Below, piece after piece: positions 2 through 7,638 of a stretch of DNA of 64,000 nt (its first letter is position 1; each line of letters begins with the position of its first letter). The DNA is from an uncultured Fidelibacterota bacterium (GTDB lineage Bacteria > Fidelibacterota > Marinisomatia > Marinisomatales > Marinisomataceae): the NCBI GenBank assembly GCA_902629855.1, contig CACOSI010000002.1, positions 7,501 to 71,500 of the forward strand. The letters run 5' to 3'. Position numbers and translations under genes: made by a program. Under the pieces are notes generated by a model. The model saw only the letters and a list, made by a program, of their open reading frames with translations, was not told the DNA's origin and did no database searches.

Positions 2-742
2 TCATGTGGAGAAATTCTTTATAATCCAGAATTAGAAGCAGCTTTAAATATTTGTCATCATTGTAATTTTCATTTTCCTATAGATAGTAATAAGTATCTT
101 GAAATTATTTTAGATGATGAATACAAAAATTTATTCTCAAATATAAGCTCAGTAGATATGCTTAATTTTAAAGCCAACAAATCATATGAAGAAATTCTTG
201 ATAAAGTCCCAAATGACAAGGAAGCAGTTGACTGTTTTTACGGTACTATTGATGGTAAAAAAGTTGTTCTTTGTTTAATGAATTTTAAGTATATCGGAGG
301 AAGCATGGGTAGTGCTGTTGGTGAAAAAATTTCAAAGGGAATTAATTTTGCATCTGATAAAAATTGTCCATTAATAATTCTATGTCAATCTGGTGGAGCT
401 AGAATGCAAGAAGGAGCTTTATCTCTTATGCAATTGTCTAAAATTAGTACTCATTTATCAAGATTTTCAAAACAAGGTGGACTATATATATCAATTCTTA
501 CATTCCCAACAACCGGAGGTGTTACTGCTAGCTTTGGAATGCAAGCTGACATTACTATTGCAGAGCCAAAAGCACTTATTGGTTTTGCTGGGCAGCGTGT
601 AATTAAACAAACAACGAATCAAGATTTACCCGAACATTTTCAAACCTCTGAATTTTTATTAGAAAAAGGCTTTATTGATTTTGTTGCAGATAGAAAAGAA
701 TTAAAACAAAGTTTATCCAACGTAATGGAAGTATTAATTTGA
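2..742 (+). CDS. accD: Acetyl-CoA carboxylase carboxyltransferase beta subunit (partial, 5' end outside window)
   Basis: This is the beta subunit of the carboxyltransferase that moves CO2 from carboxybiotin to acetyl-CoA, the first step of fatty-acid synthesis. The frame is open from base 2, so the start lies upstream; about 246 residues are visible, against about 280-300 for the family. At the extreme N-terminus a Cys and a CxxC pair (SCGEIL, then CHHC) are the remains of the AccD C4 zinc finger. The crotonase-like core shows SGGARMQEG and TTGGVTASFG, the acyl-CoA-binding oxyanion region. An internal ATG at 158 would remove the zinc finger and is not the start. The last codons overlap the guaA start (TTGA), which suggests translational coupling. 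Confidence 0.95.
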   Translation, partial: SCGEILYNPELEAALNICHHCNFHFPIDSNKYLEIILDDEYKNLFSNISSVDMLNFKANKSYEEILDKVPNDKEAVDCFYGTIDGKKVVLCLMNFKYIGGSMGSAVGEKISKGINFASDKNCPLIILCQSGGARMQEGALSLMQLSKISTHLSRFSKQGGLYISILTFPTTGGVTASFGMQADITIAEPKALIGFAGQRVIKQTTNQDLPEHFQTSEFLLEKGFIDFVADRKELKQSLSNVMEVLI

Positions 743-2283
743 AAGATTATAAAATTATCATAATAGATTTTGGTTCACAATATACGCAGCTCATAGCTAG
801 AAGAGTAAGGGAGATTGGTGTTTATTCTTTGGTTATGCCATCTTCAATAAATCCTCAAGAAATTAAAAAAATAAAACCTGATGGCTTAATTTTATCTGGT
901 GGACCAGAATCAGTCACGTCTACTCAATCTCAAAGAATTAATAAAGGATTGATTGACTTAGAAATACCGATACTTGGAATTTGTTATGGCATGCAAACCC
1001 TATCAAATGAGCTTGGTGGTGAAGTAATTAATTCTGATATTCACGAATTTGGTCACGCAGAAATTTCGTTAAAAAATAATTCACCAATTTTTAAGAATAT
1101 TCATAGTAAAAATAATGTCTTAGATGTTTGGATGAGTCACGGTGATAAGGTTAATGTACTTCCTAAAAGTTTTGAAGTAATAGCTTCATCAAAAGATTGT
1201 CAAATTGCTGGATTTCAATCAAGTGATAAAAAAATATTTGGTCTTCAATTCCATCCCGAAGTAACTCATACCAATCAGGGGAAAGAAATACTTTCAAATT
1301 TTGTTTTTGACATCTGTGGTTGTAAAAAAAATTGGTCTACAAAGGATATTATTAATTCGATGATTCAAGATGTAAAAACAAAGGTTAAAGATGACAAAGT
1401 TATTTTAGGACTTTCAGGAGGTGTAGACTCTTCTGTTGTTGCAATGCTTCTTAACAAAGCAATTGGTTCTCAGTTAATATGTATTTTTGTCGATCATGGG
1501 TTACTTAGACTAGGTGAAGTAGAAGAGGTAATGACAACATTTAAGGATTTGGGTATTGATATTAGATTATCTAAGGCATCAGATATTTTTATTTCACGAT
1601 TAAGTGGTGTATTAGATCCTGAGAAAAAAAGAAAAATTATTGGAAATACTTTCATAGATGTTTTTGAAAAAGAAGCAAAAAAAATTAAAAATGTTGATTG
1701 GCTTGCTCAAGGAACAATTTATCCTGATGTTATTGAATCATCATCAGATGATCATAATTCAAGTGTAATTAAATCACATCACAATGTTGGAGGTTTACCA
1801 GAAAGAATGAACTTAAAATTACTTGAGCCTATAAGGCAGTTATTTAAAGATGAGGTAAGAAAAATTGGTAAAGAACTGGAAACTCCTAATCATATCTTAT
1901 CAAGACATCCATTTCCTGGACCAGGCTTAGGTATTAGAATTATGGGAGAAGTATTAAAAGAAAGAGTTGGTACTTTACAAAAAGCTGACAAAATTTTTAT
2001 TGATGAGCTTAAAAAAAATAATCTTTATGATTCTTTAAGCCAGGCTTTTGTTGTGTATCTTCCTATAAAGTCTGTTGGTGTTGTTGGAGATGAAAGAAGA
2101 TATGAAGATGTATTAGCTTTAAGAGCTGTAGAAACAGTTGATTTTATGACAGCTAAATGGGCTCATTTACCATATGAATTTATCGGAAAGGTATCTAACA
2201 GAATTGTAAATGAGATATCTACTGTAAGTAGAGTAGTTTACGATTGTACTGGAAAGCCTCCAGCTACTATTGAATGGGAATAA
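739..2283 (+). CDS. guaA: GMP synthase (glutamine-hydrolysing)
   Basis: It converts XMP to GMP in the cytoplasm using glutamine nitrogen and ATP. At 514 residues it is full length. The N-terminal class I amidotransferase domain has the nucleophile Cys82 in GICYGMQTL and the His172/Glu174 pair in FHPEV. The ATP pyrophosphatase domain carries the P-loop SGGVDSS at 226-232. The C-terminal dimerisation domain ends in the typical CTGKPPATIEWE. The start is TTG, overlapping the accD stop by four bases; no ATG fits, because the first residues (MKDYKIIIIDFGSQYTQLI) match the family N-terminus directly. Confidence 0.97.
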   Translation: MKDYKIIIIDFGSQYTQLIARRVREIGVYSLVMPSSINPQEIKKIKPDGLILSGGPESVTSTQSQRINKGLIDLEIPILGICYGMQTLSNELGGEVINSDIHEFGHAEISLKNNSPIFKNIHSKNNVLDVWMSHGDKVNVLPKSFEVIASSKDCQIAGFQSSDKKIFGLQFHPEVTHTNQGKEILSNFVFDICGCKKNWSTKDIINSMIQDVKTKVKDDKVILGLSGGVDSSVVAMLLNKAIGSQLICIFVDHGLLRLGEVEEVMTTFKDLGIDIRLSKASDIFISRLSGVLDPEKKRKIIGNTFIDVFEKEAKKIKNVDWLAQGTIYPDVIESSSDDHNSSVIKSHHNVGGLPERMNLKLLEPIRQLFKDEVRKIGKELETPNHILSRHPFPGPGLGIRIMGEVLKERVGTLQKADKIFIDELKKNNLYDSLSQAFVVYLPIKSVGVVGDERRYEDVLALRAVETVDFMTAKWAHLPYEFIGKVSNRIVNEISTVSRVVYDCTGKPPATIEWE

Positions 2284-2284
2284 A

Positions 2285-3931
2285 GTGAAAAAAATAATCA
2301 TCCCATCCTTTTTAATTTTAATCGCAATTTTAACTTGGCAGTATAGAGTAAATATAGTTGTTTGGTCAATTCCAAGAGTTTTGAATATAATTAGGCCAGT
2401 TTTATCTGAAGGAACATCAAATTGGCAAAAAGGACCAACAGTAAAAGACTTTAAAGAACAAAGACCAAACATCATTTTAATATTAGCTGATGATTTAGGC
2501 TTTAACGATATCTCATTATATAATGGTGGAGCTGGCAGCGGATTATTAATGACACCAAACATCGATAAAATTGCTAAAGATGGAGTTACTTTTGAAAATG
2601 GTTATGCAGCAAATGCTATGTGCGCTCAATCAAGAGCATCTATAATGACTGGACGTTATTCTACAAGATTTGGTTTTGAGTTTACTCCTCTTTTTCCTGG
2701 AGCAACAAAATTAATTGAATGGATTGACAGTATTAATGACCCCGTTCTAAAAACAGAAATAGAACATAGCATGTATGCAGATGCAGCAGATGTCTTTTCA
2801 GCAGGAATGCCCACACAAGAAATTACAGTTGCCGAAGTTCTTCGTGATGCTGGATACTATACAGCTCATGTTGGAAAGTGGCATTTAGGAAGAGTTGATG
2901 GTAGTCACCCTATTGATCAAGGTTTTGATGATAGCCTTCTTATGGAAGGAGGATTATATCTTCCTGAAAATCATAAAAATGTGGTAAATGCAAAATTTGA
3001 CAATGCTATTGATAATATGGTATGGGCACGATCTCAGTATAGTGTTTCTTTTAATAAAGGACCAGCATTTGCACCAGACTCATATTTAACTGATTATTAT
3101 ACTGATGAAGCTATAAAGGTAATTCAAAATAATAAAAACAGACCTTTTTTCTTGTACTTAGCGCATTGGGCTGTTCACAATCCTCTTCAAGCTTTAAAAA
3201 ATGATGTTGATTCAGTCAAACATCATACAAAGCACCACAATCTTCAGGTATACTCTGGTATGATTGGAGCATTAGATAGAAGTATCGGAAGAATAATCGA
3301 AGTCCTTGATAAAAATAATCTTTCAGAAAATACTTTAATTATTTTAACTAGTGACAATGGTGGAGCCAGCTATATTGAACTAGAAGATATTAACAAACCT
3401 TATAGAGGCTGGAAGCTTACACATTTTGAAGGAGGAATGCATATTCCATTTATGGCTAAATGGCCAAGAGAAATAAAAGCAGGTCAAAAATTCGTTCCAG
3501 CAGTTCATCATAATGATATTTTCCATACTATTGTAAATGCAGCTGAAGCTAAAATTCCAAATGATAGAAAATTAGATGGTATTGATTTTATGCCATATGT
3601 AAAAGGCTTAAAAAGTGGAGAATTACATCAAACTTTATTTTGGAGACAAGGTCATCAGCAAACAGTATTGCACCAAGGATGGAAATTGATAAGAACAAAT
3701 AAAATTCAACATAAATGGCTTTTTAACTTATCAGAAGATCCAACTGAAAAAAATAACTTAGTAGTTGAATATCCAGAAAAGGTTGAAGAATTAGATAATC
3801 TTCTAAAAAAACATAATCTTGAACAGATTGAATCAATGTGGCCAAGTGTCATTAATGGACCAATATTAATTGATAAACATTCAGGACAGCACTATGAAGA
3901 AGGTGATGAATATATTTACTGGCCAAACTAA
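2285..3931 (+). CDS. Type I sulfatase, membrane-anchored or exported
   Basis: An alkaline-phosphatase-superfamily sulfatase of 548 residues, expected to release sulfate from a sulfate ester outside the cytoplasm. A hydrophobic N-terminal stretch (residues 5-30) looks like a signal anchor. Metal-binding residues are seen in LADDLGFND (Asp69-Asp70) and TSDNGG. The formylglycine site is CAQSRASIMTGR with Cys113; the usual pattern is C-x-P/A-x-R, so Gln at the third position is unusual. I chose GTG at 2285, two bases after the guaA stop; a TTG at 2270 would overlap guaA and add five residues. Its stop overlaps the next ATG by one base. The substrate cannot be inferred, and no formylglycine-generating enzyme is in the window. 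Confidence 0.85.
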   Translation: MKKIIIPSFLILIAILTWQYRVNIVVWSIPRVLNIIRPVLSEGTSNWQKGPTVKDFKEQRPNIILILADDLGFNDISLYNGGAGSGLLMTPNIDKIAKDGVTFENGYAANAMCAQSRASIMTGRYSTRFGFEFTPLFPGATKLIEWIDSINDPVLKTEIEHSMYADAADVFSAGMPTQEITVAEVLRDAGYYTAHVGKWHLGRVDGSHPIDQGFDDSLLMEGGLYLPENHKNVVNAKFDNAIDNMVWARSQYSVSFNKGPAFAPDSYLTDYYTDEAIKVIQNNKNRPFFLYLAHWAVHNPLQALKNDVDSVKHHTKHHNLQVYSGMIGALDRSIGRIIEVLDKNNLSENTLIILTSDNGGASYIELEDINKPYRGWKLTHFEGGMHIPFMAKWPREIKAGQKFVPAVHHNDIFHTIVNAAEAKIPNDRKLDGIDFMPYVKGLKSGELHQTLFWRQGHQQTVLHQGWKLIRTNKIQHKWLFNLSEDPTEKNNLVVEYPEKVEELDNLLKKHNLEQIESMWPSVINGPILIDKHSGQHYEEGDEYIYWPN

Positions 3932-4395
3932 TGGTTAAAATAGAAGTTATAAGCTATAATAAAAAATTTTCAGAGGATTTTTATACTTTAAACAAACTTT
4001 GGATTGAAGAAAGTTGGTCTCTTGAAGATTCTGACAAAGAAGATTTATTAAACCCTGAAAAAATCATAAAAAAAGGTGGACAGATATTTTTTGCTGTTTC
4101 AAATAATAAGGCAGTTGGTACTGTAGCAATGATTTTTAATTCAAAAAATAAATTTGAATTGGCTAAAATGACCGTCAAAAGTCATTTTAGAGGCAAGGGT
4201 ATAGCCAATATATTAATGGATAAATGCATTCAATTTGCAACTGAAAAAAAAGCTAAAGAAATATTTTTAATATCAAATGATTCGCTAAAAATCGCTAGGA
4301 ACCTATACGATAAATATGGGTTTATTGAAGTAGATTTAGATTCAAAAAAATATGAGAGGGGAAATGTAAAAATGGTGCTAAAATTAACACCATAA
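3931..4395 (+). CDS. GNAT family N-acetyltransferase
   Basis: A 154-residue single-domain Gcn5-related acetyltransferase that transfers acetyl from acetyl-CoA to an unknown amine. The acetyl-CoA-binding motif A is visible as KSHFRGKGIANILMDKC (about residues 88-104), preceded by the beta-4 strand ELAKMTV. The C-terminal half has the NLYDKYGFIEV segment typical of motif B. It overlaps the sulfatase stop by one base, so the two are probably co-translated; whether they work on the same compound is not known. A second, unrelated GNAT gene lies at 33257. Confidence 0.85.
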   Translation: MVKIEVISYNKKFSEDFYTLNKLWIEESWSLEDSDKEDLLNPEKIIKKGGQIFFAVSNNKAVGTVAMIFNSKNKFELAKMTVKSHFRGKGIANILMDKCIQFATEKKAKEIFLISNDSLKIARNLYDKYGFIEVDLDSKKYERGNVKMVLKLTP

Positions 4396-4425
4396 AATTC
4401 ATAATTTTCAATGTAAATTCAAATC

Positions 4426-6267
4426 ATGTGTGGAATCGTAGCATATAAAGGGCAAAAAAATTGTTATCCAATTCTTATTAATGGATTAAAAAAACTTGAG
4501 TATAGGGGATATGACTCTGCTGGAGTGGCTTGTATTACAGAACAGGGAAAAATTACTGTTACAAAAAGAAGTGGAAAAGTAAAGCAATTAGAAGATGTTT
4601 TAAAAAAACATGGGATGAATAAAAAATGTATAGGTGGTATAGCTCATACAAGATGGGCAACCCATGGAAGACCAAACCAGATAAATGCCCATCCTCATAT
4701 CGACGAAAGTGCTACTATTGTTTTAGTTCATAATGGCATTATTGAGAACTATGATCCAATTAAGAAGTTTTTGAAATCAAAAAAGGTAAAATTTAAATCT
4801 GAAACTGATACAGAAGTTTTAGTTCAGTTGATTGGATATTTTTACAAAAAAGGAAAATTAAATTTTGAACAATCTGTTAGAGCTGCACTTCAACGAGTTG
4901 ATGGAGCATATGCTATAGTTGTTTTAAATAAAGATGAGCCAGACAGCATGATTGCAGCTAGGAAAGGAAGCCCTCTAGCTTTAGGAATAAATGAAAAGGA
5001 ATTTTTTGTTGGTAGTGACATATCTCCTATTATAAGTCATACTCAGCAAATTATTTACTTGGAAGATTCACAAATGGCTGTAATTAAAAATGATAACTAT
5101 GAGATAAAATCCATTGATAAAGATATTTCTCTTCCAAAAATAGTTGAAAAAATAGACTATAAAATTGACGATTATGACAAAGGAAAGTTTAAGTTCTTTA
5201 TGCATAAAGAAATTCATGAACAGGTAGACACTATTTCAAACTCCATTATTGGAAGAACAACCGAACATAATGTAATTTTGAATGGATTATTGGAATATTG
5301 GTCTCAGATTGAAGCATCTGACAAAATATTTATCACCGCATGTGGAACGTCTTGGCATGCAGGGTTAATTGGAAAAAATTTAATTGAAAGATTTGCTAAA
5401 GTACCAGTTCACGTAGAGTATGCTTCAGAATTTAGATATAATAGAACTTTAGTTGATAACAAAAGTGTTGTTATAGCTATTTCACAATCTGGAGAAACAG
5501 CTGACACTTTAGCTGCAATTAAAAAAGCAAATGATTATGGGGCAATCACTATTGGTATTTGTAATGTAGCCGGGAGTTCAATATCAAGAGAAACAGATTG
5601 TGGTGTATTTACAAGGTGTGGGCACGAGATTGGTGTTGCTTCAACTAAAGCTTTCACAGCGCAAATTAGTATACTATACTTATTTGCTCTAAAATTAGCT
5701 TCCTCAAGAAAGCAGATTTCAAAATCTGCAATGACTGCACATTTAGATTTTTCATCTAGCTTGAGAAAAGTAAGATCTGTTTTAAGAAAAGAAAATGAGA
5801 TAAAAAAAATAGCTTTAAAATATAAAAATGCTTCAGATTTTTTATATCTAGGAAGAGGTTTAAATTTTCCAGTTGCTCTTGAAGGCGCTTTAAAGTTAAA
5901 AGAGATATCATATATACATGCTGAAGGCTATCCAGCAGCAGAAATGAAACATGGTCCAATAGCTTTAGTAGACAAGAATATGCCAAATGTTTTTATTGTT
6001 CCTAAAGATATGACATATGAAAAAATTATTTCTAATATTGAAGAAATTAGGTCAAGAAAAGGAAAAATTATTATCATAACTGATTCAAAAGAAAAGATTC
6101 TGAAAGATTTAGCTCATGATTTAATTATTATTCCGAAAACTAATCATTATATGTTTTGTGTTTTAGCTACAATTGTTTTACAGTTATTTGCATACTACAT
6201 AGCAGTAGGTAAAAAGCTGAATGTAGATCAGCCAAGAAATTTAGCCAAGTCTGTTACCGTAGAGTAG
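4426..6267 (+). CDS. glmS: Glutamine--fructose-6-phosphate aminotransferase (isomerising)
   Basis: It makes glucosamine-6-phosphate from fructose-6-phosphate and glutamine, the entry to peptidoglycan and LPS precursors. The protein has 613 residues. The N-terminal Ntn amidotransferase begins with the nucleophile Cys2 (MCGIVAYKG) and contains HTRWATHG. Two SIS domains follow, with ITACGTSWHAG and ISQSGETADT in the first. The C-terminus QPRNLAKSVTVE is intact and matches the family end exactly. The 30-base upstream gap is too short for a glmS ribozyme. A displaced second copy of the terminal codons V-T-V-E-stop lies at 7180-7194, beyond the nuclease gene, suggesting that something inserted at this 3' end. 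Confidence 0.97.
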   Translation: MCGIVAYKGQKNCYPILINGLKKLEYRGYDSAGVACITEQGKITVTKRSGKVKQLEDVLKKHGMNKKCIGGIAHTRWATHGRPNQINAHPHIDESATIVLVHNGIIENYDPIKKFLKSKKVKFKSETDTEVLVQLIGYFYKKGKLNFEQSVRAALQRVDGAYAIVVLNKDEPDSMIAARKGSPLALGINEKEFFVGSDISPIISHTQQIIYLEDSQMAVIKNDNYEIKSIDKDISLPKIVEKIDYKIDDYDKGKFKFFMHKEIHEQVDTISNSIIGRTTEHNVILNGLLEYWSQIEASDKIFITACGTSWHAGLIGKNLIERFAKVPVHVEYASEFRYNRTLVDNKSVVIAISQSGETADTLAAIKKANDYGAITIGICNVAGSSISRETDCGVFTRCGHEIGVASTKAFTAQISILYLFALKLASSRKQISKSAMTAHLDFSSSLRKVRSVLRKENEIKKIALKYKNASDFLYLGRGLNFPVALEGALKLKEISYIHAEGYPAAEMKHGPIALVDKNMPNVFIVPKDMTYEKIISNIEEIRSRKGKIIIITDSKEKILKDLAHDLIIIPKTNHYMFCVLATIVLQLFAYYIAVGKKLNVDQPRNLAKSVTVE

Positions 6268-6274
6268 GTATCAC

Positions 6275-6285
6275 GGGGGGGTATT
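6275..6285. repeat. Left copy of inverted repeat flanking the HNH gene
   Basis: Seven G residues followed by TATT, seven bases after the glmS stop. Ten of its bases are the exact reverse complement of 7156-7165. The G-run lies just before the TTG start of the nuclease gene, so it could also act as an unusual ribosome binding site. Confidence 0.6.
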
Positions 6286-6286
6286 C

Positions 6287-7156
6287 TTGTTTATACAAAA
6301 TAAAGATTATAAACGTTCTGAACTCCATGATGAATTTGGAGGAAATCGTCAAAGAGGAATATCTAACTGTGTAAATCATCCCATAATATTTATTTTTTCA
6401 AATCTCAATACTGAACAACAAGATGTTTATATTGATGAATGGAGAGATAAATATTTTTATTATAGTGGAGAAGGAAGAGTTGGTGACATGACAATGACTG
6501 GAGGTAATTCTTCAATTTGGAATCATGAAAGTGATGGACAACAAATTCATTTATTTGAAAAGACTGAACGTTCAGGATATTGGAAATATATAGACCAGTT
6601 AAAACTAGTAGATATTAATTATTATAAAAATTTTGATGAAAATGGTAAAGAAAGACAAAGTTTTCAATTCATTTTACTTTCTACTTCAGAAGAAGATAAT
6701 ATAAAAATCTCAAATGACGACTCTAGTAATATCACTAGATATAATTATAATAGACCTAATACTACTGAAAGAAGGGGATTAGTTACCTCTAGAGTTGGAC
6801 AAGGTTATTACAAAAGTAGACTCTTAGATAAATGGAATTCAAAATGTAGTGTTACTGGAGTAGGAATAACGAAAATATTAATTGGTTCACACATTGTTCC
6901 ATGGAGAGATAGTAATGACGACGAAAGATTAGATGTAGATAATGGAATTCTATTAACTCCAAATCTTGATGGTCTTTTTGATAAATATTTAATTACATTT
7001 GATGATAATGGTAAAATTGTTTTTTCAAAAAAACTTGATATCAATGAACTAACAATTTTAGGAATTAATAATGAAATGAAAATTTCTTCAGTAAATAGTA
7101 GAATGAAGAACTATTTAAAGAGACACAGAGAAAAATTTTATGAACAAGAAAAATAA
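6287..7156 (+). CDS. SRA-like/HNH endonuclease, putative modification-dependent restriction enzyme
   Basis: A 289-residue protein with two parts. Residues about 15-135 resemble the SRA-like domain of ScoMcrA-type enzymes: GGNRQRGISN, then YYSGEGRVGDM, GGNSSIWNHESDG and IHLFE. SRA domains bind modified bases. Residues about 172-250 form an HNH_2-type nuclease: Cys187 before SHIVPW (His202), VDNGILLTPNLDGLFD (Asn219, Asp228). This layout fits a type IV, methyl-dependent restriction enzyme, which is inference from the family. The start is TTG at 6287, because a stop codon lies just upstream in frame and the next Met is at residue 68, inside the domain. It stands alone between inverted repeats and no methyltransferase is nearby. 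Confidence 0.8.
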   Translation: MFIQNKDYKRSELHDEFGGNRQRGISNCVNHPIIFIFSNLNTEQQDVYIDEWRDKYFYYSGEGRVGDMTMTGGNSSIWNHESDGQQIHLFEKTERSGYWKYIDQLKLVDINYYKNFDENGKERQSFQFILLSTSEEDNIKISNDDSSNITRYNYNRPNTTERRGLVTSRVGQGYYKSRLLDKWNSKCSVTGVGITKILIGSHIVPWRDSNDDERLDVDNGILLTPNLDGLFDKYLITFDDNGKIVFSKKLDINELTILGINNEMKISSVNSRMKNYLKRHREKFYEQEK

Positions 7157-7165
7157 ATACCCCCC
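7156..7165. repeat. Right copy of inverted repeat flanking the HNH gene
   Basis: AATACCCCCC, starting on the last base of the nuclease stop codon; it is the exact reverse complement of 6276-6285. The two arms are about 870 bases apart, too far for a transcription terminator hairpin, so a mobile-element end is the more likely reading. Confidence 0.6.
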
Positions 7166-7179
7166 TTGTTCCACAAACC

Positions 7180-7194
7180 GTAACAGTTGAGTAA
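7180..7194 (+). pseudogene. Displaced remnant of the glmS 3' end (V-T-V-E-stop)
   Basis: The bases GTAACAGTTGAGTAA read V-T-V-E-stop. The true glmS end at 6253-6267 reads the same peptide with GTTACCGTAGAGTAG. The four differences all fall at third codon positions. The remnant's stop is followed after three bases by the TTG start of the next gene, which is the tight spacing usual in this genome. It therefore looks like the original glmS terminus before the nuclease gene arrived. The match is only 15 bases long, so chance cannot be excluded by eye. Confidence 0.45.
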
Positions 7195-7197
7195 AAA

Positions 7198-7638
7198 TTG
7201 AGCACAAAAATTCCTCCACCAATAGTTACTTTAATTTTTGGGTTAATTATTTTCTTTTCTAGGTCTCTTTTTCCAATTTATAGTTTTAGTAATAATGTTA
7301 GTTTAATATTTTTATTTTTTGGTTTAATTATTTTAATTATTGCTGTTAGATCATTTAAAAAACATCAAACTACTATTAATCCATTAAATCCAGATCAGGC
7401 TTCTTCACTTGTAAATTCTGGTATCTTTAGTTTTACTAGGAATCCAATGTATTTAGGGATGCTATTAATTTTAATGTCTATTTCGTTTAAGTTTAACATT
7501 CTAGGAGGTATTTTAATTTGTTTTCTATTCAAAATTTATATTACAAGATTTCAAATAATGCCAGAAGAGGAGGCAATGGAAAAGATTTTTGGAAAAGATT
7601 TTGTTGAATACAAGAATAAAGTTAGGAGATGGATTTAA
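7198..7638 (+). CDS. Isoprenylcysteine carboxyl methyltransferase-family membrane protein
   Basis: A 146-residue integral membrane protein with about four hydrophobic helices. The N-terminus KIPPPIVTLIFGLI and the core SGIFSFTRNPMYLGMLL followed by EEEAMEKIFGKDFVEYKNKVRRWI are the hallmarks of the ICMT/PEMT-like membrane methyltransferases, which bind S-adenosylmethionine through the conserved RNPMY region. The bacterial substrate is unknown. The start is TTG, supported by the family N-terminus beginning at once with the IPPP motif. It begins three bases after the displaced glmS stop, so it was probably the immediate neighbour of glmS before the insertion. Confidence 0.85.
   Translation: MSTKIPPPIVTLIFGLIIFFSRSLFPIYSFSNNVSLIFLFFGLIILIIAVRSFKKHQTTINPLNPDQASSLVNSGIFSFTRNPMYLGMLLILMSISFKFNILGGILICFLFKIYITRFQIMPEEEAMEKIFGKDFVEYKNKVRRWI

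Follow-up and report, generated by a model that had tools for sequence, protein, structure and literature searches.

Immediately downstream of glmS in the window (the whole 64,000-nt stretch of DNA analysed here, from a 0.93-Mb genome of the phylum Neomarinimicrobiota, or Marinimicrobia), an HNH nuclease gene sits in a 927-bp cassette, measured core to core from 6253 to 7180, with glmS on one side and the native neighbour on the other. We consider it probable that this segment is an integrative cassette with a single gene, its two ends being hybrid attachment (att) sites of a large serine integrase (LSR), with the 3′ end of glmS serving as attB. The case for a serine integrase as the agent of insertion is good, and we infer that such cassettes may be mobile at the present day. 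The cassette is most likely a recombinase-less, att-bounded unit that entered by LSR recombination at glmS, the enzyme acting in trans from phages. The features of the locus are listed below; G numbers designate genomes.

4426–6267, + strand: glmS, the target gene; the chromosome is attached to at its final codons, V-T-V-E-stop (open reading frame (ORF), Pfam).
6253–6260, + strand: 8-bp core GTNACNGT, left copy, here GTTACCGT (register test; crossover mapped between empty G007 and filled G010 and G012).
6261–6286, + strand: left (downstream-type) att arm of the cassette, including GGGGGGTATT (near-identity to phage attP GACGGGGGGTATTCTT).
6287–7156, + strand: cargo HNH nuclease, 289 aa, TTG start (PF13391, PADLOC and PDB matches).
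7154–7179, + strand: right (upstream-type) att arm of the cassette, including AATACCCCCC (sequence, register test).
7180–7187, + strand: right core copy, GTAACAGT, cassette-borne (register test, G010 comparison).
7188–7194, + strand: displaced native glmS end, TGAGTAA (comparison with empty sites in G002, G007 and G022).
7198–7638, + strand: native downstream neighbour, phospholipid methyltransferase-like, PF04191 (adjoins glmS directly in empty relatives).

Direct reading of the sequence places the glmS 3′ terminus, GTTACCGTAGAGTAG, at 6253–6267 and a second V-T-V-E-stop sequence, GTAACAGTTGAGTAA, at 7180–7194, with the next gene beginning at 7198. All four mismatches between the two copies fall on third codon positions, as the original prediction had described. 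The HNH ORF is flanked by GGGGGGTATT at 6276–6285 and AATACCCCCC at 7156–7165. There are three occurrences of GGGGGGTATT in the whole genome, two of them being the cassette ends; the third, discounted as a cassette end, lies within a fumarate reductase/succinate dehydrogenase-type flavoprotein gene. The last residue and stop codon of the present glmS (AGAGTAG) are contributed by the cassette, within the left arm. This arm is G-rich and, lying five bases 5′ of the TTG start, may double as a ribosome-binding site.

The glmS gene was matched in 90 of 101 relatives, and comparison of empty and filled sites agrees with the proposal made in the original prediction that insertion occurred at the glmS 3′ end, restoring the end of the gene and displacing the native terminus. 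The empty sites that it had suggested looking for are present in five species of the same genus (G002, G005, G007, G018 and G022), where the methyltransferase gene lies directly 3′ of glmS. In G007 the empty site has the sequence GTAAGCGT-TGAATAAATGTCAATT. In filled G010 the left junction is GTAAGCGT-GGAGTAGAGTTGAGAGGGGG and the right junction ...ACTCTGTAACCGT-TGAATAAATGTCAATT; the cassette therefore has its own glmS end at the left and its own core at the right. Comparison of G007 with filled G010 and G012 places the crossover within the last glmS codons, with no target duplication. The exchange is conservative and the glmS end is restored. The 15-mer GTNACNGTNGARTAR, encoding V-T-V-E-stop, has 20 matches in 24 genomes of the genus; each is either the glmS terminus or a displaced copy of it at this locus, and none lies elsewhere.

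Filled sites elsewhere in the genus carry genes for MORN lipoproteins, a VanZ-like protein, GNAT acetyltransferases and other HNH proteins, unrelated cargo that is bounded alike. Cassettes are mostly 0.25–1.9 kb in size with one to a few genes, and occur in tandem rows of up to three units, as in G019 with its three successive cores. Two GNAT cassettes are common to G003 and G009, with an additional MORN unit ahead of them in G003; similarly, G016 has an additional unit ahead of a VanZ cassette that adjoins glmS in G004, G010 and G012. Because these arrays differ in the glmS-proximal unit, new units seem to enter beside glmS. One GNAT cassette gene, at 72% identity, is shared by two families at the glmS locus, and a Flavobacterium metagenome-assembled genome (MAG) holds a cassette with the same ends, its left arm almost equal to that of G069. 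The right-end motif was found in 1 of 399 Flavobacteriaceae; some of the genomic-contig matches are due to chance. In 12 of 52 cases a MAG contig ends <1 kb downstream of glmS, compared with 3 that end upstream (p=0.035), which is the pattern that variation of the locus within populations should produce.

Several further observations concern these arrays. In five genomes, cassette ORFs that are unrelated to one another are followed by a conserved stretch of ~55 bp, CAAACCCCAACCGAAATCCTTTATAGTCCCAATT... (for example loci L047 of G019 and L046 of G016). Similar lipoprotein/peptidase-MA starts lie beside glmS in two genera, with different att arms (L102 of G093, 264–1064, and L143 of G090), which suggests that cargo may move between end types. 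The long array at L169 (G086, 60–5900) combines genes for a probable nuclease, a Rieske/metallo-hydrolase and a GNAT protein, and its displaced core lies at ~4.7 kb. In the search output, glmS itself is frameshifted or stop-broken in L057 (G012) and L056 (G015), perhaps through assembly error. Finally, the GNAT gene just 5′ of glmS in the window (3931–4395) resembles the second downstream GNAT cassette gene of G009 and G003.

Read outward from the 8-bp core (the Val-Thr-Val codons), the cassette ends form an in-register dyad of ~25 bp per arm, centred in the window between 6256 and 6257. The 10-base inverted repeat on which the original prediction rested is indeed present at both ends, but its extent was incomplete: it is the outer portion of this larger dyad. 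The position of the dyad centre would make the AC of the Thr codon the central dinucleotide. Summed over seven cassettes, 91 of 168 dyad positions match at offset 0, compared with 36–67 at other offsets and with a mean of 53.4 (standard deviation 5.7) in shuffled controls, 0 of 20,000 of which reach 91. Three hold-out sites that took no part in setting the register (G064 and two phage attP sites) gave 52 summed matches at register 0 and 17–26 elsewhere; G064 alone has 19 of 26 (p=2e-6). Both the register test and the hold-outs thus describe a dyad-symmetric attP of LSR type, ~50 bp long about a central dinucleotide, with an outer motif at ~18–28 from the centre. Arm sequences vary among cassettes and match within each cassette, left arms pairing best with the right arms of their own cassette (permutation fraction 1e-4). 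Joined ends fold as one hairpin whose loop holds the core (mean z −2.1). An IS200/IS605-like hairpin at each end was rejected because either end by itself folds scarcely better than shuffled sequence, if at all, whereas the joint does fold better; no plausible RNA family was found.

The same site lies beside serine integrase genes in phages. Viral contigs were searched with the left cassette end, which turned up a 15.2-kb marine phage contig on which an intact, fully palindromic att site (dyad 20/24) is located directly downstream of a 576-aa LSR gene. Its arms (GACGGGGGGTATTCTT) are almost equal to those of the window (CACGGGGGGGTATTCTT), and the phage also carries the GGGGGGTATT arm motif. 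Another intact site, with different arms, accompanies a 594-aa LSR on a second marine phage contig, L212; the contigs with an intact attP beside an LSR are IMGVR_UViG_3300029266_002020 and IMGVR_UViG_3300044298_005195. In L186, a viral contig joined to a glmS end, the adjoining gene encodes a 566-aa LSR with Resolvase, Recombinase and zinc ribbon domains (PF00239, PF07508, PF13408), 31% identical to the LSR of the 15.2-kb phage. Two other Neomarinimicrobiota genomes, G091 and G182, likewise have LSR genes adjoining glmS or close to it. The ParB-like protein of the 15.2-kb phage is 44% identical to the product of a prophage gene of G007, in the window's genus. All att-site relatives found are phages, with no integrative and conjugative element (ICE) or integrative and mobilizable element (IME) among them. 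Viral matches to the right-end motif, and three of the later left-end matches, are only chance matches in coding sequence.

A small HTH gene lies beside the phage attP. The frame that borders this attP on the side away from the LSR recurs immediately 3′ of glmS in G065, G081 and G100, which belong to the same taxonomic order as the window. This small frame has a motif like I..LR..(G)L.Y.QI...LN (L170:60–450, L153:60–413, L163:60–390, L210:4754–5100 and L212:3595–3936), and its product is a candidate directionality factor. We also note an HNH domain fused to a HIT-like domain at L186:1291–2280. The window's genus gave no LSR match, and the window's own genome (G000) gave no PF00239 match. A phmmer search of ~40 glmS flanks with recombinase queries was negative, probably since the queries lacked LSR relatives and several flanks end <1 kb away. 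The tyrosine recombinases of the genus are Xer-type enzymes and phage integrases, none of them at glmS; the additional tyrosine integrases are phage genes located elsewhere. The literature searched yielded no description of an LSR acting at glmS or of such cassettes in Marinimicrobia.

The nuclease is cargo, dispensable for insertion, because other cassettes carry unrelated genes. The protein matches PF13391 (E=7e-12) and, in PADLOC, the restriction-type models HNH (1e-22) and mREase_IV (1e-4). Its C-terminal HNH domain is like the solved HNH endonuclease 6yex (PDB, 2e-26), and the N-terminal region is weakly like the ScoMcrA chain 5zmn (PDB, E=0.005). These similarities point most likely to a defence nuclease, and a type IV-like, modification-dependent restriction enzyme is likely. 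No close homologue was found in the genome contigs searched, and relatives in phages and plasmids are partial only. Nucleases recur at the glmS hotspot: L053 (G011) has a third, distinct HNH architecture of 419 aa beside a 109-aa gene, ~430–1690 past the glmS end.

In the mechanism that we propose, the circular cassette would carry an attP-like site of two inverted ~25 bp arms around GTNACNGT, with the predicted circle junction AATACCCCCC-N14-GTAACNGT-NGARTAR-N7-GGGGGGTATT. Exchange at the core would keep glmS intact, the cassette supplying the new end and the old end being displaced downstream. The enzyme would be supplied in trans by a phage of the same marine group; this is the most likely source because the LSRs of phages and prophages in that group have the same att site and the cassette has no recombinase. 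The suggestions in the original prediction of a minimal element and of movement in trans, the latter probable, are supported.

Several points weigh against this interpretation. No genome has both an LSR and a window-type cassette with matching arms, and the circular form of the cassette was not seen. The LSRs are only ~31% identical, so that the exact enzyme of the window cassette is not singled out among them. There is a small AGC misfit between the left core of G010, GTAAGCGT, and the cassette core, GTAACCGT, which requires either a later change or tolerance of central mismatches. Finally, some cassettes have decayed ends (G004, G012 and G011). It is also possible, although we advance it only tentatively, that the locus reflects an integron-like LSR cassette economy in which a fixed glmS landing site and phage enzymes serve single genes, nucleases among them, travelling as att-bounded circles from one streamlined marine bacterium to another, even between phyla.

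Could the cassette instead be a dead remnant, that is, a glmS prophage reduced to two att ends and one gene, derived by LSR action and never mobile as a cassette? The presence of LSR prophage ends at glmS in relatives and the decay of some cassette ends are in its favor. It does not readily account for several unrelated single genes lying tightly within matched att arms in different species without phage remnants, for the tandem rows with glmS-proximal addition (G003 versus G009; G016 versus G004, G010 and G012), for the GNAT gene shared at one locus by two families or for the same-ended cassette in a Flavobacterium, and we regard it as unlikely. A homing event, in which the HNH nuclease cuts the empty glmS end and its gene is copied in by repair, would explain why a nuclease gene adjoins a conserved site. 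Same-ended cassettes without a nuclease (MORN lipoproteins, GNAT, VanZ-like) nevertheless occupy the same site, and the window nuclease resembles restriction enzymes, which makes homing highly improbable.

Cassettes of a tyrosine recombinase or integron type, in which glmS would be the attI and the palindrome a folded attC, would share the tandem array, the single gene per cassette, the glmS-proximal insertion and the conservation of arm pairing rather than arm sequence. We think this very unlikely, as the GTTRRRY box of attC is not kept (its third position takes any of the four bases), the core forms the centre of the dyad instead of being flanked by it, the tyrosine recombinases of the genus are absent from glmS and the att site is found beside serine integrases. 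Tn7 inserts ~25 bp past the glmS stop and generates a 5-bp target duplication. Insertion in trans by a Tn7-like element, with a TnsD homologue as its guide, would fit the use of the glmS end, which is the Tn7 target (PMC10293859). Such a link had been raised in the original prediction, and we now give it almost no credence: the exchange is conservative and lies in the last glmS codons, well upstream of the Tn7 insertion point, there is no target duplication, the ends differ between elements and intact copies of the site are accompanied by a matching recombinase of the large serine integrase type. The cassette is not a Tn7 relative, because its att-type ends match serine-integrase sites of phages; as had been noted, it holds no tns-like gene (ORFs, Pfam).

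If the LSR cassette interpretation is correct, there is a second route for single-gene cassettes besides integrons, by way of phage serine integrases. No resident recombinase would be needed, so even streamlined genomes of ~0.9 Mb could use it. It would also explain why this locus is hypervariable in uncultured ocean bacteria, and would provide a fixed target sequence, its attachment site and the integrases for tests in E. coli, including new integrases that recognise the end of a highly conserved housekeeping gene.

These cassettes can be compared with several known systems. With Tn7 at attTn7 they share the use of the glmS end and differ in mechanism, position, target duplication and genes. 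Like integron cassettes, they are small, mostly one-gene units in a directional array with the newest next to the anchor, but they have a different dyad geometry, and neither an integron integrase nor an attC consensus (GTTRRRY boxes), features of integrons and clusters of attC sites lacking integron integrases, is found in them. The attP sites of serine integrases are symmetric and ~50 bp long, with a central dinucleotide and an outer motif bound by the zinc ribbon at positions 16–24 (PMC3783163). The two-fold symmetry, the outer motif and, in phages, the adjacent integrase gene are the same here, whereas the site bounds small integrase-less cassettes and its arms reach to ~position 28. In attB of LSR elements, the zinc ribbon motif is expected to lie 5 bp further inward. 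The staphylococcal cassette chromosome (SCC) and ccr-less SCC-like remnants at orfX/rlmH (PMC3637587) likewise combine an att site of a serine recombinase, located inside a housekeeping gene at its 3′ end, with terminal inverted repeats, islands in tandem and recombinase-less members. Here, however, the target is glmS rather than rlmH/orfX, the units hold one to a few genes, ccr is lacking and the LSRs found are phage or prophage genes. Cis-mobilizable elements (CIMEs) are decayed ICEs or IMEs for which tandem accretion is known (PMC5704250). As in CIMEs, the window ORFs reveal an attL and an attR without integrase or transfer genes, and accretion is in tandem at the end of the target gene; the present units differ in being mostly 0.25–1.9 kb and in having phage LSRs as their recombinase relatives. 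By this comparison, the glmS cassette resembles CIMEs and ccr-less SCC elements, but with only one to a few genes.
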